From Rhizobium favelukesii (GTDB lineage: Bacteria; Pseudomonadota; Alphaproteobacteria; Rhizobiales; Rhizobiaceae): a DNA stretch of 64,000 nucleotides. The position numbers and the translations under genes are program-made. The first letter of the stretch is position 1. Each line of letters begins with the position of its first letter. Below are positions 19,885 to 31,614 of the stretch, piece after piece. The DNA is taken from NCBI RefSeq assembly GCF_000577275.2, contig NZ_HG916852.1, positions 3,103,001-3,167,000 of the forward strand, in the 5' to 3' direction. Under the pieces are notes generated by a model. That model was not told the origin of the DNA. It was given only the letters and a program-made list of their open reading frames with translations, and did not search any database.

Positions 19885-20430
19885 TCATTCGGTCAGGATT
19901 CCCCGGCCTTTCGCTTCTTTGGGCGGCTGGTGCAGCGCGATCGGTTCCGCCGGATAGACCTGCTGGAACCGGCAGTGGGTCTGGCACCAGGCGGCGGCCG
20001 GTGGGGACAGCCAGCCGGTCATTTCCAACATGCTGTCGTAGCGCTTCGGCAGGTTCCACATGATGACCGGCTCGTGATGGGCGATGAGATTCCGCAGGCT
20101 GCGGATTTGCGCCAGCGGGCCGGAGAAATCCTTTCTTCGCAACCCCTTTCCGTCCGGCTTGCGGCCGATCTTGTGCAGGGTTGTCTGCCACAGCGTTTCA
20201 TAGTCCTTGCCGAACATCGCAGTCCAGAAGCTGAATGTCAGGGCGGCGACGATCCGGCCGGGCGTCGGCTCCTTTTTGCCTTCCTCAATATCCTGGATGG
20301 CCTTGGCGAGCTGTTCGGGCTGCCATCCACCGAGCAGCAATCCCTCCTCGTGAAACCAGCTTTCATTGATAGCTTCGGTCATGATGGCATCGGTGCGGTT
20401 CCGCAGCGCCACTTCCAGCATCTGGAGCGG
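19885..20430 (-). pseudogene. Abi_2-like protein, N-terminus lost
   Basis: From about 20427 down to 19885 the frame encodes the C-terminal two thirds of an Abi-like (Abi_2) abortive-infection family protein: PLQMLEVALRNRTDAIMTEA, LTFSFWTAMFGKDYE, and SLRNLIAHHEPVIMW, whose RNLIAHH forms an RX4H HEPN-type motif. The usual N-terminal 60-80 residues are absent. The frame runs upstream instead into the 3' end of an HTH gene in another frame. The HEPN-type active site is preserved, but no proper start is seen. This is probably a deletion fossil. Confidence 0.65.
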
Positions 20431-20800
20431 CGTAGATATTGCTGTTCCAGTCCACGGCAGCCGTCTTGCGCATTTCGCGCCTGATATAGCCAGCCCTCTC
20501 CAGGGCGCGCATATTGTTCTGGATAGTCTTCTCCGTGACATCCATACGATTCGCCAATTCCTTCTTGGCCGGAAACGGCTTGCGCGTCGGCTCGTGCCAG
20601 TAATCCAGGAGCTGGATGATGATGTTCATCTGCATCGCATTGATGCCAAGACGGCGCTGCGCCTGGATCAGGATAGAGGGGATGCCGGCGTAACCGTGGC
20701 TATACACGGCCTTGACCCAGATGCGCTCCGTTGAGGAAGGCTACTTGGCTGCGGGCTTGGGAAAGTTGATGGCTTCTGCATCGGTAGTCGTGGCGCTCAT
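20428..20800 (-). pseudogene. HTH-domain protein with amber stop and lost C-terminus
   Basis: Reading from ATG 20800, the frame starts MSATTTDAEAINFPKPAAK, meets TAG at 20741-20743, and continues without interruption as STERIWVKAVYSHGYAGI, ILIQAQRRLGINAMQMNII and a winged-helix segment KKELANRMDVTEKTIQNNMRALE up to WNSNIY. TAG may derive from a CAG glutamine codon. After NIY the frame runs out of register into the truncated Abi gene (junction about 20428-20435). The family is a plasmid- or island-associated HTH protein. Initiation after the stop could still give a 90-residue domain. Confidence 0.65.
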
Positions 20801-20872: not shown

Positions 20873-20891
20873 GTAGCATACGGTAACATAC
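20873..20891. promoter_or_regulatory. 19-bp palindrome, copy A
   Basis: GTAGCATAC-G-GTAACATAC. The right half is a perfect copy of the shared half-site; the left half is degenerate. It is centred 101 bp before the start of the exported protein gene at 20983. It belongs to the set at 27026, 27532 and 29797. Confidence 0.5.
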
Positions 20892-20982
20892 TATCTGCAT
20901 CGGAGCCTTCGCTGCCATGGTGTGTGCGATCTCGCTGCGAAGAGAGCGAGAACCGATCTCGAAACACAAGGGACACAAGCGA

Positions 20983-21381
20983 ATGAAAGTCCTCAAGAGC
21001 ACCGCCCACCTGCTTGCGGCAATCTCGGTTCTGATGCTGGTCTCCGTACCGATCCTCGGTCCGTCACCGGCCGAAGCAGGACGGGCGGCGGCGTGCGGCC
21101 CGAGAGGCTGTGCTGCGGCCGGATGCGGGCCAAGCGGTTGCGCAGCCGGAGCCGTCCGACGTCCTCCCGGTTATCGTCCGGTACCGCACCGCGGCGTGGT
21201 CGTCGTCGCACCGCATCGCTACTGGAGGCCGGGCGGTGCGATTGCCGCGGGTGCTGCGATCGGCTTCGTTGCCGGGGCGACGGCGGCCTCGATCGCCGGA
21301 ACGCCACCCAAGCCCGGCTATTGCTGGTACTACACGACTCCAGCCAAGACGACCGGCTTCTGGGACGTGTGCCCCTCGTAA
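20983..21381 (+). CDS. Small exported protein with Gly/Ala-rich segment
   Basis: This 132-residue secreted protein starts at ATG 20983, preceded by AAGGGA. It has a signal peptide (residues 1-30, MKVLKSTAHLLAAISVLML, cleavage near AEAGR). A cysteine/glycine-rich stretch (CGPRGCAAAGCGPSGCA) follows, then a glycine/alanine hydrophobic segment and a C-terminal GYCWYYTTPAKTTGFWDVCP block. That C-terminal block recurs in small rhizobial periplasmic proteins of unknown function. It is preceded by palindrome copy A. A membrane-protein gene follows after 23 bp. Confidence 0.65.
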   Translation: MKVLKSTAHLLAAISVLMLVSVPILGPSPAEAGRAAACGPRGCAAAGCGPSGCAAGAVRRPPGYRPVPHRGVVVVAPHRYWRPGGAIAAGAAIGFVAGATAASIAGTPPKPGYCWYYTTPAKTTGFWDVCPS

Positions 21382-21404
21382 TACAGCCAGATCGAGAAAA
21401 TCCT

Positions 21405-21875
21405 ATGACGACTTCGCGGGCGCGATATTCGTGGCTGCTGACGACACAGCCGATTGGCTCTGCATCCTTGCTGAGCCAATGCTATCCCCTGTACTCCCGA
21501 ATGCTGGATGATCCAGGGCATGTGCAGGTATACGCCGATACGCCTATGGTTTCGGTTATTGGGCTCAGCATAGCACTGGTGCAATTCGCGCACTGGTATC
21601 GGGCATTCAAGGTTCCCGTGCCGTTCAGGGACGCTAACGTTGTCCTTGGTCAGCTTGTCCTGTTCGCCAGCCGCCTCACCTTCATCATCGCCAGTGCGCT
21701 GTTTTCCTTGGTGCTATTTCGACATCTGCCGGAAGCCGATTTTGGACAGCCCTGGGCCTATGTCTGGCGCGGCCTTCTCCTCCTGGCGGTCTTGTTTTCC
21801 GTTTTCTGTTTCACCACCGAATTGGAGCGCCTCGGGGTGGCGTTTCGCGGACAGGAGAAAACAACAGGCGATTGA
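21405..21875 (+). CDS. Hypothetical membrane protein
   Basis: This 156-residue protein has about three hydrophobic segments (around MVSVIGLSIALVQFAHW, VLFASRLTFIIASALFSLVLF and WRGLLLLAVLFSVFCF). It starts with ATG 21405, 23 bp after the preceding exported-protein gene, and is probably in one operon with it. I do not recognise the family. The polarity of loops suggests an inner-membrane protein. Confidence 0.6.
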   Translation: MTTSRARYSWLLTTQPIGSASLLSQCYPLYSRMLDDPGHVQVYADTPMVSVIGLSIALVQFAHWYRAFKVPVPFRDANVVLGQLVLFASRLTFIIASALFSLVLFRHLPEADFGQPWAYVWRGLLLLAVLFSVFCFTTELERLGVAFRGQEKTTGD

Positions 21876-22001
21876 TTCGGTTCGAATCGCTGCGACGGAC
21901 GTGGCGCGCGCCACCGTCAGCCGTGGCTGGGCCGGTCGCGCAGGCTTGGCCGCCAAGAATATGGCGGCGGCCGAGGCTCGCTCATCGAGCACCGTCCGCA
22001 A

Positions 22002-22021
22002 CAGAACATACCAGATGTTAC
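22002..22021. promoter_or_regulatory. Rearranged palindromic site, copy E
   Basis: CAGAACATACCAGATGTTAC contains AACAT-N5-ATGTT. It is identical at 17 of 20 positions to 29585-29604, and both are followed by GGGC. It uses the same half-site words as the GTATGTTAC palindromes but in opposite order. It lies 58-77 bp before the DUF2147 gene start at 22079. Confidence 0.4.
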
Positions 22022-22078
22022 GGGCTTTCGCCGGCGCCACCGTGTAGTTGTTGAGCGCAGTCACGTGAAGGAGAAGTC

Positions 22079-22417
22079 ATGAAGCGCCTACTCATAGCCA
22101 TCGCGGCATTTGCGGCAATTGCCAACATCGCATATGCACAAGATCCGATTGTTGGAAACTGGAGGACCGAGCTTGGAGATACCGCCGAAATCGCTTCCTG
22201 CGGCAGCGGCTATTGTATCACCCTGAAATCGGGCAAGCACGCCGGCAAGCAGATCGGCACCTTCGGAGGTAGGGACGGCAGTTACGAAGGCAAGATCACC
22301 GATCCGGGTGCCAACAAGACCTATAACGGCTCCGTGACTGTCTCAGGTAACGCGCTAAAGCTGAAGGGGTGCGTGTTGAAGGTCGTGTGTGAAGCGCAAA
22401 CGTGGCCTCGCCTCTGA
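22079..22417 (+). CDS. Exported DUF2147-family protein
   Basis: This 112-residue protein has a signal peptide (MKRLLIAIAAFAAIANIAYA|QD). The mature part starts PIVGNWRTELGDTAEIASCGSGYCI and ends KGCVLKVVCEAQTWPRL, as in DUF2147 proteins, which form a lipocalin-like barrel and whose function is not established. AAGGAGAAG precedes ATG 22079. It is slightly short for the family, which often has an intact Trp-Thr-Arg ending; here the ending is WPRL. Site E lies in its promoter region. Confidence 0.78.
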   Translation: MKRLLIAIAAFAAIANIAYAQDPIVGNWRTELGDTAEIASCGSGYCITLKSGKHAGKQIGTFGGRDGSYEGKITDPGANKTYNGSVTVSGNALKLKGCVLKVVCEAQTWPRL

Positions 22418-22461
22418 GAAGAAAGCCTGGGTGTCCGCCGCCGTTGCCAGCGACGGTCCCC

Positions 22462-24399
22462 TTATTGTGACCGGTTGACCTGCACCATCGGCTGGGCGAA
22501 ATCGATGTCATTTTCGCCAAATGTCTGCATCAGCAATGTGTATGCTTTTCTTCGGATCGAAGTCTGTTCGCCTAGCTTGCAGGTGAACCCTACAGCGACT
22601 TCGATGCCGTACTCGCCGATTTTCTCGACGCCGGTCAGCTTGAGCGGCTTTATGAAAGATGACTTGAATTCCGGATCCGCCTCGAGCTCGACGCCGATAT
22701 CCTTGATGAGTTTGCTCACTTTATCCAGGTCCGTTTTGAAGGGGATATGGAAGCGAAATTTGTCGACTGCCCAGTCACGGCTCGAATTTTTGATTGCGCC
22801 AAGCGTGCCGAAAGGCACCGTAAATATTGGTCCTTGATAATGCCGCAGTCGTACAGATCGTAGGCTAAACGACTCGACGACACCGGCGTAGCTTCCCGCC
22901 TCAATGTATTCCCCGACTCGGAACGCATCGTCCAGTAGATAAAAAACGCCGCTGACAATGTCTTTGACGAGAGTCTGCGAGCCAAATCCAAGAGCAACAC
23001 CCACCACCCCTGCTCCGGCGATAAGCGGGCCGATCTGCACACCCATCTGTGAGAGAACAGTGAGAACGGCCACAGAAAGCAGCCCGGCGGCCAGCGTGTT
23101 GCGGAAAACCGGGAGCAAGGTGCGAATCCGGCTTTGGCGCGCCATCTCGTTCGAGTCGAGCGCTCCTTCGTCGCCGTAATCGCTGAGCTTGCGGGCGATG
23201 TATGCGTTGCCGAGTTGCCAGATTAAGTCGAATACAAGCAGAATAACAACGCTATTGAATACGCCGGCAACGATCGACTGAGCCAGAGCCAGGTGATCGC
23301 CTAACGGCTGAAAATTTTCGTGCCAAACGAAGGCGATCCAATCCGCTGCCGCGATGACGATAACAGCTCTCGCCACCCGAACAAGCATGACGGCTTTCAG
23401 CTCCCTCGTGCCATTGCTGTTCCAGTGAGAAGCCGCGAACGCCGAGGTCAGCTTGTCAGCGACTGACAGCGCGCGTGGCACAACGACAATCATGATACCG
23501 ATCCAAAACAATCCTACGAAGCCACAGCACCAAAGTAGCCAGAGCGAGATCGCAGCACCAATCCTTATTGCGCGAGGCGCTCGGCCCACTGCGGAATTGC
23601 CATCACTTCGAGGCGCGCGGCCTATTGTATCGATCACGATCAGGAGAAAGACTGTCGAAAATATAAGGGCACTCAGCGAACGGACGTTCGATGCGACGCC
23701 GAGCCTCTCGCCAATAGCCGAAAATGCCAATGCCGCCGTCAGCACAGCGACGAGCAGTCGGACGCGAGGATAGACCCTAGCCATCGATGTGGATGCGGCC
23801 ATCGCGAGCCGGTAGAGCGCCATTGCTCCCTGGAAGGCCACTGTCGCCAGAAGCGAGTAGAGAACGACCAACCGCACAAGCGGCGGCCAGGCGACGAGCA
23901 GATACAATAGCGCAGCCGTAGCCGTGAATATCAACAGTGGCATAATCTCGGTGTGGACTCGCTTCAGCAGAGGGTTGGCTGGGAACATGTATGGCGCCGA
24001 ACGACGAATGGATCGGCCCCCGCCAATGGCTGCGATGATCCCGAGCAACAGTATTCCAGGCGCAAGGCCACTGTCGCGCGCCTCTTGCCAAACCGGACGC
24101 GATACGCGGTAGAGTTCGTTGCCAAATAGCGGCACGGCGGAAAGCAGTCCGTCGAGGCGGGTGCGTGATCGGGTCTCCAATTCGTCGATCACCCGCACGG
24201 CTTCTGTAGGCGCGGCTTCCGCAGCCACAACTTGCCTTTGCGCCAACCATGTCTTCACGTCCGCGTCTTCGAGAAGGCGAAGCAGTTCGGTGATCTTTGG
24301 CGGCTCAGCAGGGGTCGTCGCAAGCGCAAAGGCCCCCAACGGAGAACTGCTCCACAAACAAAGGCACAGGTTGAGTAGCAGAATGCGAATGGTGAACAT
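22462..24399 (-). CDS. MscS-family mechanosensitive channel
   Basis: This 645-residue channel has a signal-like N-terminus, a periplasmic stretch, about eight predicted membrane segments and a C-terminal MscS core. The pore helix is recognisable as GPLIAGAGVVGVALGFGSQTLVKD, followed by the beta domain (RVGEYIEAGSYAGVVESFSLRSVRLR) and IPFKTDLDKVSKLIK. It is larger than E. coli MscS (286 residues) and resembles the YbdG/YnaI or plant-like extended types. It should protect against hypo-osmotic shock. It runs convergent with the DUF2147 gene. Confidence 0.9.
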   Translation of the reverse strand: MFTIRILLLNLCLCLWSSSPLGAFALATTPAEPPKITELLRLLEDADVKTWLAQRQVVAAEAAPTEAVRVIDELETRSRTRLDGLLSAVPLFGNELYRVSRPVWQEARDSGLAPGILLLGIIAAIGGGRSIRRSAPYMFPANPLLKRVHTEIMPLLIFTATAALLYLLVAWPPLVRLVVLYSLLATVAFQGAMALYRLAMAASTSMARVYPRVRLLVAVLTAALAFSAIGERLGVASNVRSLSALIFSTVFLLIVIDTIGRAPRSDGNSAVGRAPRAIRIGAAISLWLLWCCGFVGLFWIGIMIVVVPRALSVADKLTSAFAASHWNSNGTRELKAVMLVRVARAVIVIAAADWIAFVWHENFQPLGDHLALAQSIVAGVFNSVVILLVFDLIWQLGNAYIARKLSDYGDEGALDSNEMARQSRIRTLLPVFRNTLAAGLLSVAVLTVLSQMGVQIGPLIAGAGVVGVALGFGSQTLVKDIVSGVFYLLDDAFRVGEYIEAGSYAGVVESFSLRSVRLRHYQGPIFTVPFGTLGAIKNSSRDWAVDKFRFHIPFKTDLDKVSKLIKDIGVELEADPEFKSSFIKPLKLTGVEKIGEYGIEVAVGFTCKLGEQTSIRRKAYTLLMQTFGENDIDFAQPMVQVNRSQ

Positions 24400-24617
24400 T
24401 TAGCCTCGCGCGGCCAACTGGCGCCTTGGTGTAAATCGTTGGGATGAATCGTGATGAATTTCCGTGCCCTCTGGAAAGGAGCCGATGCTTGCCGCCTTAT
24501 CTTATCCGGACCGGTCGGATCCAACGATGCGGCCCAGAGGGTTCGAAGCAAAGCAGATACGAGCAACCTGTATTTCGGCCTATATGCATCCGAAATGCTA
24601 GGTCTGGCCCATGCTCA

Positions 24618-25112
24618 TCATTGAGGACCATCGTCAGAATGCGCGCGCTTTGCTCGCAACATATCGAATCTTCCAACGTCGGTCATGATGTTGACCAGAA
24701 CACTGCCAGTCCATCCGAAGGTGAATAACCCCGACATGCCGATGATCGGTCCGAGCAGACGCCATCGATCTGGCAGAGTGACGTTGCCTTCCCCGAGCGT
24801 CGTGTAGCTCTCCAAAACGAAATAGTAGCTGTCGCGCATCGAGGGGATGATTGAACGCGCATAAAGAGGAACCGACCAGATCAGCGTCTCTGCAAAATGC
24901 AGGATTGCCAAGGCAGCGATCGTCACTGCGAGCACGAGATTCAGGCGCCAGTGCCCTCTGGCGCTCGTGACATGCATCCACGATTTGCTGAATTTCCAAC
25001 TGATGGCCCGGATGCCCACGCCGTGCACGAATATCACCACGATCAGAATGACAGTGCCGACACATATCTCCAGAACCGGGTTTGGAGCCGATAGCAGATC
25101 CACAAGTGACAT
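24618..25112 (-). CDS. Two-TM ion-channel-like protein
   Basis: This 164-residue protein has an N-terminal membrane segment (EICVGTVILIVVIFVHGVGI), a second around LNLVLAVTIAALAILHFAETLIW, a re-entrant loop with ESYTTLGEGNVTLP, and a last helix (LLGPIIGMSGLFTFGWTGSVLVNIM). The layout recalls the ion-channel (Ion_trans_2) pore, but the filter reads TLGEG rather than the potassium signature TVGYG. The ion specificity is therefore unclear. It is flanked by an MscS-type channel and exported proteins. Confidence 0.7.
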   Translation of the reverse strand: MSLVDLLSAPNPVLEICVGTVILIVVIFVHGVGIRAISWKFSKSWMHVTSARGHWRLNLVLAVTIAALAILHFAETLIWSVPLYARSIIPSMRDSYYFVLESYTTLGEGNVTLPDRWRLLGPIIGMSGLFTFGWTGSVLVNIMTDVGRFDMLRAKRAHSDDGPQ

Positions 25113-25199
25113 CCTCGGTAGTCTGGCCGCAGGTGTGGAAGGCTTCTCTCGAGCCTCCCACTGGTCTGTCTCCAGCGCAAATGGTGCGGTTGCGTCGCG

Positions 25200-25895
25200 C
25201 TAGTAACAAGGTGGATAGGGGTAGTATCCGCATGCTGGAGGCGGGTAGTAGGGCCGATTGGCGGCGACCGCGGCTGCGCCGACCGCAGCACCCGCAACCA
25301 CGCCCGCGCCGTAATAGGCGCCAGGATGTGCGTACCAGCCGCCACGCCAGACGGGGGCGCGAAAACCAGCGCCCCCGACGGCGACGCCCCCGTAAGGACC
25401 ACGTGCCGCAAACCAGTCGATGAACAGTGATGCCGGCCCATCCGCTCCGGCGAGATCACCTTCGAGCACAGCCACGTCGAAGGTCAGATTCTCGCCCTCG
25501 AGCTTCGGCATCTTCAGGACGACCACGGCGTCGGCGATGGAATCTCCCTTGGCGCTCAAGACCGAAATCGTCGCATTGGGAGGGTCTTTGGCGAAACTGT
25601 CTGCCCCCTCGCCCCACTGCTTGATGAACTCTGCGGTCAGGACATGCCCCGCAGAACGCACCGGGCGGTCGGCGAACACAATGGAATTTGCTGAGATGCC
25701 GCTCATCGTCAGCTTGCCGTTCTCCAGCTTTGCACCTACGGAGTTGAGCACGGCAAGCGACGGCACCATTTTGGACTTGGTTGCGCCGATGGTCTTCTGC
25801 GCGGGGGCCGAGATGGCGTCTTGCGCGCCGACCGGTGAGGTGAAAGCGAGGCTCGCGGCGACCGCGATGATGCAGGTGTGAGAGATCCTAAGCAC
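25200..25895 (-). CDS. Exported protein of unknown function
   Basis: This 231-residue protein starts from GTG 25895, with GGAGG 7 bp upstream. The signal peptide is about residues 1-24 (cleavage near GAQDA). The middle part is soluble (VLTAEFIKQWGEGADSF, VLKMPKLEGENLTFDVAVLEGDL). The C-terminus is Gly/Ala/Tyr/Pro-rich and ends ACGYYPYPPCY, suggesting a wall- or surface-exposed tail. I do not recognise a named domain. It precedes an OmpA-like gene and follows it in transcription by 29 bp, so the two probably share a transcript. Confidence 0.68.
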   Translation of the reverse strand: MLRISHTCIIAVAASLAFTSPVGAQDAISAPAQKTIGATKSKMVPSLAVLNSVGAKLENGKLTMSGISANSIVFADRPVRSAGHVLTAEFIKQWGEGADSFAKDPPNATISVLSAKGDSIADAVVVLKMPKLEGENLTFDVAVLEGDLAGADGPASLFIDWFAARGPYGGVAVGGAGFRAPVWRGGWYAHPGAYYGAGVVAGAAVGAAAVAANRPYYPPPACGYYPYPPCY

Positions 25896-25924
25896 TATTT
25901 GTCCTCCGGTGGGCCACGAGGCCT

Positions 25925-26494
25925 CTACTTCAAAAGTCCAAGATTGATCAGTTGAACGCGCCTGTTATCGGCAGCCTCCGGGTGGCCGGCGTCGATCGGC
26001 CATTCTTCGCCCGCGCCAACGGAAAAGAGGCGATCGGGTGAAATTGCGAACGTCGTCGCCAGCGCCTCGTTGATCGCGTCGGCGCGTTTCTGGCTGAGCT
26101 CGAGGTTGTGTCTGGCCGATCCCGTCGCGCTGGAATGCCCGACGATAAGGAACTTGTAGCGGAACAGATCCGGGTGATGCAGTGCATCTGCGATCAGGCC
26201 GACGGTGCGGTAGGATTTCGGCTCGATGGCGGTGGAGTTGTTTTCGAAATCGATCTCGACGATCAGCTGCGAAAGCTCTGCGAGCTTGCTCCAGTTGGGG
26301 AGTGCTGCAACGCCCTTCCCGACGTTGGCGTTTGCCTCCTCCACGAGCAGGGCGACGTCGACGGCAGGGGCTGCCGACCTGACCTGTCCCAGCGTGCTCA
26401 TGATCTGACTGTTGTCGAGCTGTTGAGCGGACGCGATGCAGGGAGCCAGCAGCAGGCCGAGTGCGAGTGAGACGCTAAGGCGACGAACGAACAT
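25925..26494 (-). CDS. OmpA-family protein
   Basis: This 189-residue exported protein has a signal peptide (MFVRRLSVSLALGLLLAPCIASA) and a C-terminal OmpA-like peptidoglycan-binding domain. The domain is recognised by IDFENNSTAIEPKSY, FLIVGHSSATGSARHNLELSQKRADAI and EAADNRRVQLINL. ATG 26494 is preferred over a longer in-frame start. There is no outer-membrane barrel, so it is a short peptidoglycan-associated protein. The gene lies 26 bp downstream of the cysteine-rich protein gene and is co-oriented with it. Confidence 0.85.
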   Translation of the reverse strand: MFVRRLSVSLALGLLLAPCIASAQQLDNSQIMSTLGQVRSAAPAVDVALLVEEANANVGKGVAALPNWSKLAELSQLIVEIDFENNSTAIEPKSYRTVGLIADALHHPDLFRYKFLIVGHSSATGSARHNLELSQKRADAINEALATTFAISPDRLFSVGAGEEWPIDAGHPEAADNRRVQLINLGLLK

Positions 26495-26520
26495 TTTCTT
26501 TTCCCCGGTTCGGATCAAGT

Positions 26521-26946
26521 TCAACGCCATCCAGCGTCGGTGATTGCCTGGTTGCATGCCTTGCTGTCGACGCGTTTGGTTTCGACGAGGCAGGAAAGGA
26601 TATTCCCGTCGCCCTTCACGCTGTTGCAGTATTGAGAGACATCATGCTGGCAGACCTTGAACACCGACGCCTGCGCTTCCCGGCGCTGGGCGATCGATGT
26701 GAGCACGCTGCCAAGCGTCGAAGTGCAGGTCGGCGAAACCTTTGCGGCATTTTTCTCAAGGCAGGCCTGGATCCGGCCCTGCCCAAGGTTCTCGCCATTG
26801 CAGAACTTCTTGATGTCGTTTCCGCAATCCTTGGCAAGAACTGTCACCGCATCGGCGTAGCTGATTGTGTCCGCCCAACTAGTCGCCGCTAAAGTGAGGA
26901 AGGCGGCTAGCGCCGCTCCTCCAAAGACGCCAATTCTCTTCGACAT
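26521..26946 (-). CDS. Cysteine-rich repeat (GLG1-type) exported protein
   Basis: This 141-residue protein has a signal peptide (MSKRIGVFGGAALAAFLTLA, cleavage near SWADT). It then carries two cysteine-rich repeats: CGNDIKKFCNGENLGQGRIQ with CLEKNAAKVSPTC, and CQHDVSQYCNSVKGDGNILS with CLVETK. These resemble the PF00839-like cysteine-rich repeat. Function is unknown. It begins an apparent operon with the OmpA-like gene and the next exported protein. Palindrome copy B lies 80-98 bp upstream of the start. Confidence 0.8.
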   Translation of the reverse strand: MSKRIGVFGGAALAAFLTLAATSWADTISYADAVTVLAKDCGNDIKKFCNGENLGQGRIQACLEKNAAKVSPTCTSTLGSVLTSIAQRREAQASVFKVCQHDVSQYCNSVKGDGNILSCLVETKRVDSKACNQAITDAGWR

Positions 26947-27025
26947 AGTGTATCCCATCCTGGAGCGATTGATCGGAGAAGGTGTTTCCGGAGACATCCG
27001 TCGCGCGTCGGGATCAGAAAGGGAA

Positions 27026-27044
27026 GTATGTTACGGTAACAAAC
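27026..27044. promoter_or_regulatory. 19-bp palindrome, copy B
   Basis: GTATGTTAC-G-GTAACAAAC. The left half is perfect and the right half has one mismatch. It lies 80-98 bp upstream of the cysteine-rich protein start (minus strand, 26946), similar to the spacing of copy A to its gene. Confidence 0.55.
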
Positions 27045-27066
27045 GATAGCAACACTGGTAGCTTCG

Positions 27067-27345
27067 TCACTGTCGAGGTCGGGTGAACGGTACGACATGA
27101 GCTTGGTCCAGGGCCTGCTCGATCTCGATCTGAAGGCTGCCGACGAGCTCGGTGTACTCGCCGATACGTTCGTCGCGGTCTGGGCCGGATGACCGTTCCC
27201 ATTCCAGTTTCTCGCTGCTGGCAGTGGCGAAGTCGTCGCACAGGTCGCGAAACCCCTCGCTCCGCGCGGCGAGCTCTTCGATCGCCTTGGCGCGCGGTTT
27301 GAAATACGCCTTGGCGAATTCGACACCCTTTTCCATCTGATCCAT
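27067..27345 (-). CDS. Small helical hypothetical protein
   Basis: This 92-residue acidic protein is predicted to be mostly helical (KGVEFAKAYFKPRAKAIEEL, EYTELVGSLQIEIEQALDQ). There is no signal peptide and no recognised domain. Its 3' end lies just upstream of copy B. The intergenic region before it holds palindrome copy C, 187-205 bp away. Codon use looks ordinary, which is the main reason to count it as a gene. Confidence 0.5.
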   Translation of the reverse strand: MDQMEKGVEFAKAYFKPRAKAIEELAARSEGFRDLCDDFATASSEKLEWERSSGPDRDERIGEYTELVGSLQIEIEQALDQAHVVPFTRPRQ

Positions 27346-27531
27346 CCCTATGCCGCCTACAGCAGGCGACCGCCCTTAACCGTACGCTGCCGCAGCAAAC
27401 CTTCATGCCACCAGGCAAACTCAAAAAGGCGGAGCCCGCTTGCCGGAACCTGCGCCGCAGTCGATCCGTAGTCAGAACAGGTACTCGCGCAAGGGCACCG
27501 GCCACAGTGACCTGTGATCTTGGAAGCGCAA

Positions 27532-27558
27532 GTATGACACCGTAACATACGGCGTATG
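27532..27558. promoter_or_regulatory. 19-bp palindrome, copy C, with an extra half-site
   Basis: GTATGACAC-C-GTAACATAC (27532-27550), then GGC and a further GTATG (27554-27558), so that CATAC-GGC-GTATG forms a second, overlapping dyad. It sits in the 385-bp gap between the divergent small helical protein (start 27345) and the TPR protein (start 27731). No gene is supported in the rest of that gap. Confidence 0.5.
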
Positions 27559-27730
27559 ACGACCGTGGGCTCTTGTCACGATCGCCTGCTAGAATAGGAA
27601 CAAGCACGGGGGGCAATAGATACGGCGCGAGTCTTGCTCGTGGACGACGCATAATTTCTGCGTTAGGTTTTATTTTGCAGTTGCAATAAAAGTTCTGGTA
27701 GCATCCCTCAAGAGCGGGTGAGGAGAAAGC

Positions 27731-29548
27731 ATGGAGAATGAGATGCAGGAGCGGCGCGGTCATGCGCCGTCGCCCACGCGCGCGCCCCCGAACGCCGATG
27801 ATATTCGCGCTCAGCTCGCGCGCATTCTCAGCAGCGAAGAATTTCCACAAGTGGGTCGCAGCGTTTCGTTTCTGGTTTATGTGACCGAAGAAGCGCTTGC
27901 CGGCCGCAGTGATCGGATCAAGGGCTACAGCATTGCCATCGAGGTCTTCAAGCGCCCAGAGGGGTTCACGCAGGATGATCCTGTCGTCCGGATCGAGGCC
28001 GGGCGGCTGCGTCGCGCCCTCGAGCGTTACTATCTGGTCGCAGGACAGGACGATCCTGTCAGGATAGAAATTCCAAAAGGCGGCTACGCTCCATCGTTCA
28101 CATGGAGGGCGTCTGCGGATTCCGCAGGTAGCAATGAAAAACCGTCAGTCAATGCGTCTGGATGGCGGTTCTTCCTGTCAGTGCGAAGCATTGTGCCGAT
28201 GGCCGTTGGAGCAGCATTGGCGATTGGTGTCGTCACGATGGGGTTGGTATTATCTGCGCATATAACTGTGCAACCGAAGAGTTCGCCAGCGATCGACGGC
28301 CCTACCCTGGTGATCGCGCCATTCGTCAGCTTCAGGAACGACCCTCAGGCTGCACTCTACGCAACAGGTCTGACTGAGGAGTTATTGACTGCCCTCCCCC
28401 GCTTCAAGGAGATCAAGGTCTTCGGTCGTGAGACGTCGAAATCCCTGCCACCTGAGACGGAGGCGGCACTGGTCCGTGATGAACTCGGTGCCCGGTTTCT
28501 TCTCAAGGGTGCCGTTCGCGTTTCCGGCAATGCTGTTCGCGTTACGGCGCGACTGCTTGACACCGACACCAACGAGATCCTTTGGTCCCAGACCTATGAC
28601 GACAAAATTCAGACGCGCGATATGTTCGCCATCCAATCGGACGTTGCAAACAAGGTTGCGACGGCGGTAGCGCAACCATACGGAATCATCGCGCGGGCCA
28701 TCGTTGCCAAGCCTCCGCCGAGCGATCTCGGGAGCTATGGTTGCACCCTTCCCTTCTATGCCTACCGTGCTGAGCTAAGCGCCATTCGGCATGCCGAGGT
28801 GCGAGAGTGTCTCGAGAGCGCGGTCGCCCGCTTTCCAACCTTCGCGACAGCCTGGGCGATGCTCTCCATCATCTATCTGGACGAGGACCGTTTCAAGTTC
28901 AATCCGAGCAACGACGCATCGTCGCCGCTAGATCGCAGCCTACAGGCGGCCCGCCGTGCCGTTCAACTCGATCCCGGCAACGCCCGAGCCCAGCAGGCAC
29001 TCATGACCGCGCTGTTCTTCATGCAGAATGTACCGGAGGCTCTCCGTGTCGGCGAACAGGCGCTATTGACCACCCCGAATGATACCGAATTGCTTGGCGA
29101 GTTCGGAACCCGTGTTGCAATGAGTGGAGCGTGGCAGCGTGGAGCAGAGTTACTGGATCAAGCCATTGCCCTCAACCCGGGTGGCGGCGGCTACTATCAT
29201 GGAACCCGTGCGCTCGCCGCCTACATGCTGCACGACGACAAGACCGCAGTCATTGAGATCAGGCAGGCGGACCTCCAGAAGTTTCCTCTCTTCCACGCCG
29301 TTGCCGCCATCATCTACGCCGATGCGGGGATGATGGAGGACGCGCGTCGGGAAGCCGCTCGTTTCAACGAGATGCGCCCGGATTTCATCCGCAACATCGT
29401 CGCTGAACTCAGATCCCGTAATATCCAACCTGACGATCGGGCAAGAATGATTACCGATATCAGAAAGGCGGGATTGCCAGCCGAGGACGAAGTGCGGTCG
29501 ACCATGCTGGCGCCGACCGATGGCTCTGTTGAAGTTTGGCCACGCTAA
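27731..29548 (+). CDS. TPR protein with TolB-like domain (adenylate-cyclase-like architecture)
   Basis: This is a 605-residue protein. The N-terminal domain (about 25-120; DIRAQLARILSSEEFPQVGR, PVVRIEAGRLRRALERYY) is common to rhizobial cyclase-like and winged-helix regulators. One membrane segment follows (about 155-178; VPMAVGAALAIGVVTMGLVL), then a TolB/FlgO-like domain (ALYATGLTEELLTALPRF, ARFLLKGAVRVSGNAVRVTA) and TPR repeats (about 390-570). No cyclase catalytic domain is seen. It may be a signalling or envelope-stress protein of the region. RBS-like GAGGAGAAAGC precedes ATG 27731. Palindrome copy C is about 180 bp upstream. Confidence 0.78.
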   Translation: MENEMQERRGHAPSPTRAPPNADDIRAQLARILSSEEFPQVGRSVSFLVYVTEEALAGRSDRIKGYSIAIEVFKRPEGFTQDDPVVRIEAGRLRRALERYYLVAGQDDPVRIEIPKGGYAPSFTWRASADSAGSNEKPSVNASGWRFFLSVRSIVPMAVGAALAIGVVTMGLVLSAHITVQPKSSPAIDGPTLVIAPFVSFRNDPQAALYATGLTEELLTALPRFKEIKVFGRETSKSLPPETEAALVRDELGARFLLKGAVRVSGNAVRVTARLLDTDTNEILWSQTYDDKIQTRDMFAIQSDVANKVATAVAQPYGIIARAIVAKPPPSDLGSYGCTLPFYAYRAELSAIRHAEVRECLESAVARFPTFATAWAMLSIIYLDEDRFKFNPSNDASSPLDRSLQAARRAVQLDPGNARAQQALMTALFFMQNVPEALRVGEQALLTTPNDTELLGEFGTRVAMSGAWQRGAELLDQAIALNPGGGGYYHGTRALAAYMLHDDKTAVIEIRQADLQKFPLFHAVAAIIYADAGMMEDARREAARFNEMRPDFIRNIVAELRSRNIQPDDRARMITDIRKAGLPAEDEVRSTMLAPTDGSVEVWPR

Positions 29549-29584
29549 AGACTTGTCGAACGCGTTCCGGGGACAGTTGGGGCA

Positions 29585-29604
29585 CAGAGCATACGCGATG
29601 TTAC
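29585..29604. promoter_or_regulatory. Rearranged palindromic site, copy F
   Basis: CAGAGCATACGCGATGTTAC matches 22002-22021 at 17 of 20 positions, and the flanking GGGC/CTTTC is also similar. It uses the half-site words in reversed order compared with copies A-D. Confidence 0.4.
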
Positions 29605-29796
29605 GGGCGCTTTCTGCCTTCCGACTGTAGTCATTAGCGGTCCTGGACGACTTCACAAGTCGTTGAGCGGGCTCGCTGATTTCGCTGGCAAAGGCAACCG
29701 TAACGTAGAGGTCGGTCGGCCTTATTCCCCGTGGAATAGCGAGACCAACCGGGGCGGTAGTTTCCCCCGGCGGCTCGGAGCGGCTCGTTTACGGGG

Positions 29797-29815
29797 GTAT
29801 GTTACAGTAACGTAC
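29797..29815. promoter_or_regulatory. 19-bp palindrome, copy D
   Basis: GTATGTTAC-A-GTAACGTAC. The left half is perfect and the right half has one mismatch. Intergenic, upstream of the DUF1254 gene. Confidence 0.55.
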
Positions 29816-30159: not shown

Positions 30160-31614
30160 ATGCTTACAAAACGTGATCTGCTCCGATCTGCAGCGATGGC
30201 CGCACTCGTCGCGACGACGGCGAAGGCCGACCTGACCTCCCCCCTGGTCATTGATCAGAACAACGCCGAATGGCCCAGGCTGTTGGAGGCCAAGGACATC
30301 GCTGAGGAAGGCTTCATCTACGGCTTACCGCTCGTGATGAACTATGCGGTCATGCAGGAGTATGCCGTAGACAAGAACTCGGGGCAGTTCAAAGCGCCGT
30401 TCAACGAAATTTATAATATGCATCACGTCGCTACCCCAGCTGACACGGCAATCATCACGCCAAACAGCGACACCCCATATTCGATCCTCTGGCTGGATCT
30501 GCGCGCCGAGCCGATGGTGATATCGGTGCCGGCGATCGAAAAGGAACGCTACTACTCGGTCCAGTTCATCGACGGCAACACCTACAATTTTGGCTACATC
30601 GGCACGCGCGCCACAGGGAGCGAGCCGGGCGACTATCTGGTGGTCGGACCCGATTGGAAGGGTGAAACGCCAACCGGGATCGAGAAGGTCTTCCGGTCCA
30701 CGACGCCCTTCACACTCGCTGCTTTCCGTACCCAACTCTTCAACGCCGACGACATGCCGAACGTCGAGAAAGCTCAGGCCGGCTACAAGGCGCAGCCGCT
30801 TTCTGCGTTCCTGAAACAACCCGCTCCACCCGCCGCACCCAAGATCGAGTTCGTTCCTGCCACCACCGCCGGGATCAAGGATAACTTCTTCCAGTATCTC
30901 GACGCAGCCCTGCAATTCGTCCCCGAGACGCCGAAGGACAAGGCGATCCGTGCAAAACTTGCGAAGATTGGCATCGGTCCGGGAAAGACCTTCGCGTTCA
31001 AGGATCTATCGCTCGAACACAAAGCCGAAATCCTGGTGGCGATGAAGCAGGGTAATGACAAGGTCGACAAATGGTTGGCCAGCGGCAACAAGAGCATCAA
31101 CGGCTGGAACGTCGGCTCGTTCTTTGGCGACGAGGCCTTCTACAACGGCGATTGGGCGATGCGGGCCGGCGCCGCCAAAGGGGGTATCTATGGCAACGAT
31201 GCCGTCGAAGCGATGTACCCCTATACCCGAACGGACGCCACCGGTGAGCCGCTCGACGGCAGCAAGCACAAGTACACCATCACCTTCCCACCCGGCCAGT
31301 TGCCGCCGGTGAATGCGTTTTGGTCCGTTACAATGTACGACGGCAAGAGCCAGCTCCTGGTCAAGAACCCGATCAAACGCTACCTCATCAACTCGCCGAT
31401 GTTGCCGGCGATGAAAAAGGGTACGGACGGCTCGTTGACGCTGTACATTCAAAAGGACAGCCCCGGTGCGGACAAGGAAGCAAATTGGCTGCCGGCGCCT
31501 GACGACAAGATCTATCTCGTGATGCGCCTGTACTGGCCGAAGACCAAGGCGCCGTCGATCCTGCCGGCCGGCAAAGGCAGCTGGCAACCCCCAGGTATCA
31601 TTGTGGCCCGATAG
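30160..31614 (+). CDS. DUF1254/DUF1214 exported protein
   Basis: This 484-residue protein has an N-terminal signal (MLTKRDLLRSAAMAALVATTAKA), then a DUF1254 domain (YGLPLVMNYAVMQEYAV, TPNSDTPYSILWLDLRAEP, YYSVQFIDGNTYNFGYIGTR). A C-terminal DUF1214 domain follows (GNDAVEAMYPYTRTDATGEP, PVNAFWSVTMYDG, DGSLTLYIQKDSPG). Such proteins are widespread in rhizobia and have no established biochemical role. ATG 30160 gives the right signal peptide. It lies at the end of the accessory segment and converges on the urease structural operon. Confidence 0.88.
   Translation: MLTKRDLLRSAAMAALVATTAKADLTSPLVIDQNNAEWPRLLEAKDIAEEGFIYGLPLVMNYAVMQEYAVDKNSGQFKAPFNEIYNMHHVATPADTAIITPNSDTPYSILWLDLRAEPMVISVPAIEKERYYSVQFIDGNTYNFGYIGTRATGSEPGDYLVVGPDWKGETPTGIEKVFRSTTPFTLAAFRTQLFNADDMPNVEKAQAGYKAQPLSAFLKQPAPPAAPKIEFVPATTAGIKDNFFQYLDAALQFVPETPKDKAIRAKLAKIGIGPGKTFAFKDLSLEHKAEILVAMKQGNDKVDKWLASGNKSINGWNVGSFFGDEAFYNGDWAMRAGAAKGGIYGNDAVEAMYPYTRTDATGEPLDGSKHKYTITFPPGQLPPVNAFWSVTMYDGKSQLLVKNPIKRYLINSPMLPAMKKGTDGSLTLYIQKDSPGADKEANWLPAPDDKIYLVMRLYWPKTKAPSILPAGKGSWQPPGIIVAR

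Follow-up and report, generated by a model that had tools for sequence, protein, structure and literature searches.

The question raised by this locus is what four similar short elements, scattered between the genes of one segment of the Rhizobium favelukesii genome, are for and which protein reads them. The initial annotation of the window (the whole stretch of 64,000 nucleotides that was analysed) placed copies of a 19-bp palindrome at 20873, 27026, 27532 and 29797. These coordinates proved exact, and in a pattern scan of the window the copies differ from GTATGTTAC-N-GTAACATAC by three, one, two and one mismatches, respectively. With at most three mismatches allowed, the palindrome matches four places in the window and none in 100 dinucleotide shuffles (4 matches vs 0 expected), and at this threshold it also holds that the window contains no further palindrome copies. 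Occurrence at background frequency in a genome-wide motif scan had been named as the outcome that would speak against the element; the 7.57-Mb genome contains 10 places at no more than three mismatches and none that match the reversed control pattern, and a uniform genome density would predict 0.08 sites per 64 kb. A search for the exact palindrome in 394 genomes of the family found a match in only 3 and was too strict a criterion to be useful.

Comparison of sites across genomes shows that the conserved element consists of two 9-bp boxes, GTAnnnTAC, located 10 bp apart. The boxes are mostly inverted, which produces the palindrome first described, and sometimes direct or everted, the spacing being constant while the orientation varies. 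Description as a single 19-bp palindrome thus suits most copies but captures one of several two-box arrangements, and the copy at 20873..20891 (plus strand) is better read as a direct site, GTAGCATAC-G-GTAACATAC, in front of a gene for a Gly/Cys-rich exported protein; homologues of this gene have direct sites in all seven listed cases. The remaining copies match the inverted pattern, to which no strand is assigned: 27026..27044 before a Cys-rich gene, 27532..27550 between the divergent genes for a TPR protein and a 92-aa protein, and 29797..29815, directly followed by TTG, before a DUF1254 gene. Two everted (type II) sites on the plus strand had been missed, one at 22003..22021 (core AACATAC-CA-GATGTTAC at 22005-22021) and one at 29586..29604 (core 29588-29604), just 3' of the TPR gene, both with TAG at offset 23. 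They are the only two places in the genome (22005 and 29588) that match the everted pattern with GGG appended when one mismatch is allowed.

The position of the elements relative to promoters is informative about their likely role. A −10-like hexamer is often found at a fixed distance downstream, starting 23 bp past the operator end, and a good −35 is mostly absent (GGG follows 27 of 52 everted sites and TTG 10 of 67 others). The element would thus touch the −35 region with its centre near −45, the arrangement of a promoter that needs an activator. Distances to the genes were described as 80–110 bp before the start codons, which is true only if internal ATGs are the real starts and does not apply to the called ones. 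Site centres lie 40 bp from the called start behind 20873 (where the ORF has probably been called in the wrong frame), 38 bp from the start of the Cys-rich ORF for 27026, 190 and 196 bp from the starts of the divergent TPR and 92-aa genes, respectively, for 27532, and 354 bp from the DUF1254 start for 29797.

The genes next to the sites recur in other genomes, the frequent neighbours being the TPR gene itself and genes for the 92-aa helical protein, HlyD, DUF900, DUF1254, Cys-rich and FGE proteins. In the window, putative targets on the plus strand are the small Gly/Cys-rich exported protein (20983..21381; no Pfam hit; 7 sites before homologues), a DUF2147 protein 58 bp behind an everted site (22079..22417; PF09917, E 1.8e-11) and the DUF1254/DUF1214 exported protein (30160..31614; 14 sites before the family). 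On the minus strand, the Cys-rich repeat protein (26521..26997; PF00839, E 2.9e-13; 12 sites before the family) is the putative target of the 27026 site, and the OmpA-like gene (25925..26557; PF00691, E 3.2e-19), adjacent to it in relatives, is probably in the same operon. The cluster further includes, also on the minus strand, an exported Gly-rich protein (25200..25895) whose orthologues adjoin OmpA-like and Cys-rich genes in four loci, an Ion_trans_2 channel protein recognised by Pfam (24618..25112; orthologues in three loci) and an MscS-type channel (22462..24399; homologues in four regulator loci). These sequence comparisons give good support to the proposal that the element is the operator of an envelope-gene regulator, namely through co-occurrence, recurrent targets, promoter register and clade-specific variants; they do not show a link to stress.

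As to the regulator, no obvious cognate DNA-binding protein was thought to be encoded beside the sites. That statement fails on two counts: the TPR protein, which had been counted among the targets, carries a predicted OmpR-type winged helix, and 20363-20707 encodes a clear HTH_36 domain. Our main reading, to which we assign a probability of roughly 0.73, is that the sites serve as operators for a one-component activator tethered to the membrane and encoded among them, the 605-aa TPR protein (27731..29548, plus strand), with a predicted N-terminal winged-helix-like domain, one transmembrane helix and TPR. The proposal draws on co-occurrence and structure prediction. In a genus sample of 148 genomes, sorted by whether they encode a close orthologue of this protein, only weaker homologues or none at E<=1e-60, sites were found in 44 of 45, 26 of 59 and 1 of 44 genomes, respectively. 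Moreover, two paralogous clades of close relatives have related but different elements. A search for dyads in upstream regions yielded no operator in clade B and, in clade C, nothing clearly above composition; direct scanning found sites for B1, for 4 of 7 B2 loci and for 2 of 16 further B loci. Many distant paralogues lack a site, which, like the weakness of the fold matches, counts against the proposal. Four pattern matches in viral contigs have no relative of the regulator among them.

Other proteins might read the sites. An unlinked regulator, e.g., a TetR-like protein or a member of another family that binds palindromes, with the TPR protein merely one of its targets, is unlikely. In its favour, 20 of 41 sites in 15 selected genomes lie more than 25 kb from any strong homologue of the TPR protein, dimers of this kind typically bind 19-bp palindromes, and DNA binding by the TPR protein is a prediction. 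However, the presence and absence of sites track the TPR protein, the elements vary with its close paralogous clades, and among the 30 neighbour families listed those scanned with Pfam include no standard DNA-binding family. The boxes also change orientation at fixed spacing, which is unusual for a rigid symmetric dimer. The HTH_36 protein has a clear domain match (E 1.6e-10; also DnaD_N, E 2.7e-9) and starts about 166 bp from the 20873 site, but no relative was found by tblastn at E<=1e-3 in 140 other regulator- or site-bearing loci; the TPR protein is therefore preferred, and a local regulator of the HTH_36 type is very improbable. Slightly less improbable, though still quite so, is that the 92-aa protein (27067..27345, minus strand) is a DNA-binding partner or co-regulator. 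Its family is the second commonest beside sites (behind 37 of 192), its gene diverges from that of the regulator, and a similar-looking small gene adjoins a clade-C regulator as judged by eye; against this, the protein is predicted to be a helical hairpin without a wing, VIA-align relates it to assorted helical proteins and Pfam gives no match.

Two further alternatives concern the sites themselves. That the TPR protein is a repressor whose sites block RNA polymerase is rather unlikely. In its favour, the sites touch the −35 region and autoregulated operators are often repressed; yet the operator ends 23 bp before the −10-like hexamer and a good −35 is mostly missing. Because this hexamer stands in fixed register downstream, activation is likelier than repression. 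The clustering of the copies in one segment could point to chance or to a mobile or terminator-like repeat, but the zero counts expected by chance and obtained with reversed controls leave this a negligible probability, and a terminator or mobile repeat was rejected on account of flanks that vary between sites and of the recurring hexamer.

The preferred regulator, the TPR protein, has a distinctive predicted architecture. Its DNA-binding-like domain (residues 16-125; 27776..28105, plus strand) is delimited by an AlphaFold2 model and VIA-align. The model of residues 16-140 (pLDDT 88.9) contains helices and a two-strand wing, the predicted elements H28-41, H50-56, H69-88, E95-98 and E107-110 forming a helix-turn-helix followed by a β-hairpin wing; the N-terminal four-stranded β-sheet of OmpR-type proteins is absent from it, with a helix (7-19) in its place. 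The closest folds found by VIA-align, all weak matches, are SaeR, PhoB, VicR, PrrA and PhoP, and the fold predicted for the domain is that of an OmpR-like winged helix. In the recognition helix, R79 is invariant and L78 nearly so among 27 sequences (numbering of the aligned piece), with R74 and L73 as their counterparts in OmpR proteins of the same genome. Neither Pfam nor NCBIfam matches the domain significantly: residues 1-136 give only two hits, PF15150 at E 0.055 and PF23801 at E 0.17, neither of which reaches the cut-off, and PF00486 is absent at E<=5 from these residues and from five full-length relatives. Foldseek returned no significant match to the model, and three matches in a profile search of solved-structure sequences (E 0.4-1.5) were taken as chance. 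A membrane helix is predicted by Kyte-Doolittle hydropathy at residues about 154-176 (28190..28258, plus strand), and the TPR recognised by Pfam lie behind this single hydrophobic stretch; a TolB/FlgO-like middle region gives weak matches only, in relatives.

In the proposed mechanism, the N-terminal domain, taken to be cytoplasmic and a divergent winged helix of the OmpR/PhoB type, would bind as a pair to the two boxes, one helical turn apart. With the operator touching the −35 region and the hexamer 23 bp past its end, the bound pair would recruit RNA polymerase, as in class II activation. The TPR part, presumably periplasmic, may sense an envelope condition, and the regulator would control its own gene, through the site at 27532, together with a recurring group of genes for the envelope and periplasm, some of them unlinked.

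This organisation resembles several known systems. As in the ToxR-like receptors CadC and ToxR, a DNA-binding domain, a membrane helix and a periplasmic sensor would be combined in one chain, and the conserved Leu-Arg of the ToxR recognition helix described in PMC8517210 is found in the Rhizobium regulator as well. Two CadC domains occupy a pair of half-sites in head-to-head orientation, with a ratio of 2:1 on longer DNA and of 1:1 on the quasi-palindromic 17-mer alone (PMC5430869). Unlike these receptors, the Rhizobium regulator has no PF00486 match and no N-terminal β-sheet in the model, has a presumed periplasmic part made of TPR and an operator of two boxes at a strict spacing of 10 bp, and has relatives with tandem domains. 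OmpR/PhoB response regulators provide the closest, though weakly matching, folds in VIA-align and have half-sites about one helical turn apart, as with the boxes described here, but the Rhizobium protein has a predicted membrane helix, no receiver domain was found in it, and its boxes stand mostly in inverted rather than tandem order. HilA-type regulators likewise combine a winged helix, here predicted, with TPR; the weak match to NF009037 of NCBIfam (residues 250-544, E 0.0061, far below cut-off) spares the DNA-binding part, and the predicted membrane helix is a further difference. Class III adenylate cyclases with TolB/TPR C-termini have the C-terminal part in common with the regulator. Several homologues in the same genome align with it only from about residue 150-190 onward, and we read their N-termini as cyclases, whereas no cyclase domain was found by Pfam and NCBIfam in the window protein and the relatives scanned.

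Many relatives of the regulator are nevertheless named adenylate cyclase in databases. Such filing of a probable gene switch under an enzyme name suggests that a regulatory circuit has gone unnoticed in rhizobia and related bacteria. The N-terminal part matches 1729 of 2535 candidate proteins at E<=0.001, and the named proteins among the 120 matches listed belong to rhizobia and close kin, many of them called adenylate cyclase. In a literature search covering mostly papers that need no subscription, no account of this operator and regulator was found. The titles listed for GTAACATAC include none on rhizobial regulation, queries on ToxR-like and TPR regulators returned known systems, those on TolB-like, TPR and winged regulators with Rhizobium only a paper on Leptospira, and nothing was found on DUF1254 with arylsulfatase in Rhizobium, on DUF1254, DUF1214 and FGE, or on Trans_reg_C, TPR and TolB. 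A broader proposal, which we hold tentatively and at slightly less than even odds, is that the regulator represents a large family of membrane-tethered activators that has escaped recognition, with many members misnamed as adenylate cyclases, in which a sheet-less OmpR-like domain, in some members in tandem, reads two quasi-palindromic boxes one turn apart, inverted, direct or everted, in one −10 register. If true, a protein family would gain a role in DNA binding, an operator and a list of targets, and the otherwise unexplained envelope families DUF1254, DUF2147, DUF3300, DUF3604 and a sulfatase with its activating enzyme would be joined in one candidate regulon. Flexible membrane tethering may allow the boxes to be read regardless of orientation, and the paralogous clades with related operators offer a natural set on how a tethered winged helix tolerates such changes. 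Some relatives do carry two of the N-terminal domains in tandem, which was considered as a cause of the everted arrangement; an everted pair lies just 3' of the gene in 3 of 4 tandem-domain loci, yet in many non-tandem loci as well.

The 19-bp palindrome represents a real, conserved operator. Its four copies (at 20873, 27026, 27532 and 29797) lie exactly where the initial annotation had placed them, the window is otherwise free of matches at three or fewer mismatches, and 100 shuffles of the window yielded no match to the palindrome pattern. Across the 7.57 Mb genome the motif scan proposed at that stage found ten places (≤3 mismatches) vs none for the reversed control. Three of the six sites outside the window precede sulfatase genes, and the others precede a formylglycine-generating-enzyme (FGE) gene, a gene of a family that matches DUF3302 below the cut-off, and a small gene without Pfam match.

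Deduplicated counts over 2.1 Mb of related loci give 111 occurrences of the strict form GTAnnnTAC-N-GTAnnnTAC. At each of 24 other gaps these boxes are found 0–5 times, and gap 1 with five control words yields 0–1. Pairs of the directional box GTAACATAC (≤3 mismatches) at gap 1 are inverted in 190 cases, everted in 35 and direct in 27, and the runner-up gap, 12 (about two turns), has 20 pairs in total. From this excess at gap 1 it follows that the unit is a pair of boxes separated by one helical turn. The palindrome originally described is the commonest arrangement of this pair, but the site at 20873 is instead direct, and direct order is found in each of the seven examples shown upstream of this gene's homologues (L113, L114, L142, L155, L176, L190 and L216). 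A slight surplus of box pairs at gaps 10–13 (19–22 bp apart) hints at extra boxes two turns off.

The everted form, AACATAC-NN-GATGTTAC, was discovered by tracing half-sites and occurs at 66 distinct places at ≤2 mismatches (reversed controls, 0). Followed by GGG and with one mismatch allowed, it is present in 16 of 148 genomes of the genus, every one of them among the 45 that encode a close orthologue of the TPR protein, the proposed regulator at 27731–29548 (Fisher 6e-10, relatedness ignored). The window holds two such sites that the initial annotation did not note: 22005–22021, without mismatches and 58 bp before a DUF2147 gene, and 29588–29604, with one mismatch and directly 3' of the TPR gene. 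These are the only places in the genome that match the everted pattern followed by GGG with one mismatch allowed, and both have TAG at offset 23.

This offset recurs among the 52 everted sites that remained after deduplication of 75 occurrences and were oriented by their own asymmetry: TA stands at offset 23 in 37 and at most six times at every other offset shown, TAG at 23 in 27, and T at 28 in 65%. Of the 192 non-everted sites, 86 have a recognised gene on a single side, and in the 67 kept after deduplication A is found at 24 in 46% and T at 28 in 52%; T at 18 is likewise high (51%), and TTG immediately follows the operator in 10. The preferences of both forms, at positions picked post hoc, therefore point to a −10-like hexamer at 23–28 (TAGnnT in everted sites), which some sites lack and which, judged by eye, is not evident at 20873 and 27532. 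If this hexamer is the −10, the operator centre would lie near −45, the position of a class II activator. Given this spacing, and with a good −35 mostly missing at the sites, we infer that activation is more likely than repression. The best-known tethered analogue of the proposed regulator is CadC, of which, according to PMC5430869, two domains bind two half-sites head to head.

The regulator of the sites is probably the neighbouring TPR protein, the predicted binder. Sites (≤2 mismatches) are present in 44 of the 45 genomes with a close orthologue (G158 being the sole miss), in 26 of the 59 whose homologues are all weaker, and in 1 of 44 without a homologue at E≤1e-60, in a hand tally that scored at most eight candidates per genome and whose tests ignore relatedness; in the one exception, G117, the best homologues reach 7e-43. 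The 80 top-ranking of 305 loci retrieved with the regulator's domain, from genera including Rhizobium, Ensifer, Phyllobacterium, Pararhizobium, Agrobacterium, Ochrobactrum and Mesorhizobium, contain 152 sites at ≤3 mismatches (control matches, 0), spread over 71 loci. A motif-free dyad search upstream of the regulator returned GTAT-N6-GTAA as the commonest dyad (40 of 72 regions vs 14 for the best shuffled dyad). Of 41 sites in 15 genomes selected partly for oddness, 21 have a strong homologue within 25 kb, and the stretches that close to such a homologue total at most 1.3 Mb. A second DNA-binding protein is encoded on the minus strand at 20363–20707, about 166 bp from the site at 20873, and contains an HTH_36 domain (E 1.6e-10); because tblastn yields no relative at E≤1e-3 among 140 other loci with regulators or sites, it is an unlikely partner of the motif conserved at those loci, and its presence only very slightly lowers confidence in the overall account.

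Further evidence on the TPR protein as regulator comes from its paralogous clades, in which close relatives have elements akin but not identical to the clade-A operator. GTA[GA][CT]ATACCGTATGCTAC stands directly 3' of the regulator gene in all seven B1 loci, and GTAATATAC-N-GGAACATAC lies 85–93 bp upstream of the domain in four of the seven B2 loci; among 16 additional B loci scanned, two have GTATTTTACCGTATCATAC and 14 no element. Forms near GNWTGTTAC-N-GTAACAWNC occur in 8/8 close clade-C loci (seven distinct sequences) and in two of six remoter ones, in one of these only kilobases away, and are absent from the other four. These misses mean that the co-variation rule is established for close groups only. 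At L206 (G066:C231) the operator persists before a partial regulator copy, and partial copies are also found at L024 and L101 (own genome C61:327313-327537).

Putative targets were taken as genes within 450 bp downstream of a site, called with a simple in-house gene finder. The 192 distinct sites most often neighbour members of the regulator family (53), followed by the 92-aa family (37), an HlyD-type family (20), DUF900 hydrolases (15), DUF1254 (14), Cys-rich proteins (12), FGE (12), DUF3300 (10) and two families of sulfatases (9 and 6); 14 sites are without a nearby gene call and 20 lie within one. By hand count, a recurrent family (DUF1254, DUF3604, DUF900, DUF3302-like, Cys-rich, FGE, 92-aa and others) adjoins the site in 12 of 20 retrieved stretches, mostly far from strong regulator homologues; the remaining eight hold a regulator fragment (1), a SulP-like gene (1) and other or no genes (6). 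The 92-aa family (27067–27345 and homologues), second most frequent beside sites, is a conserved predicted helical hairpin and is perhaps a co-regulator.

In four of the five relatives whose full sequence was read, the N-terminal DNA-binding-like domain is present twice (P0003, 726 aa; P0006, 757; P0027, 698; P0014, 469). Such tandem chains are encoded at four loci (L135, L138, L173 and L180); the inverted site is absent from all four, and an everted pair directly follows the gene in three. Many proteins of the regulator family are named adenylate cyclase in databases, and those scanned have no cyclase domain. At L020 (own genome C59:979112-980589), a TPR homologue has a Trans_reg_C winged-helix match ahead of it in another reading frame, which places the C-terminal part of the regulator beside a standard OmpR-type domain.
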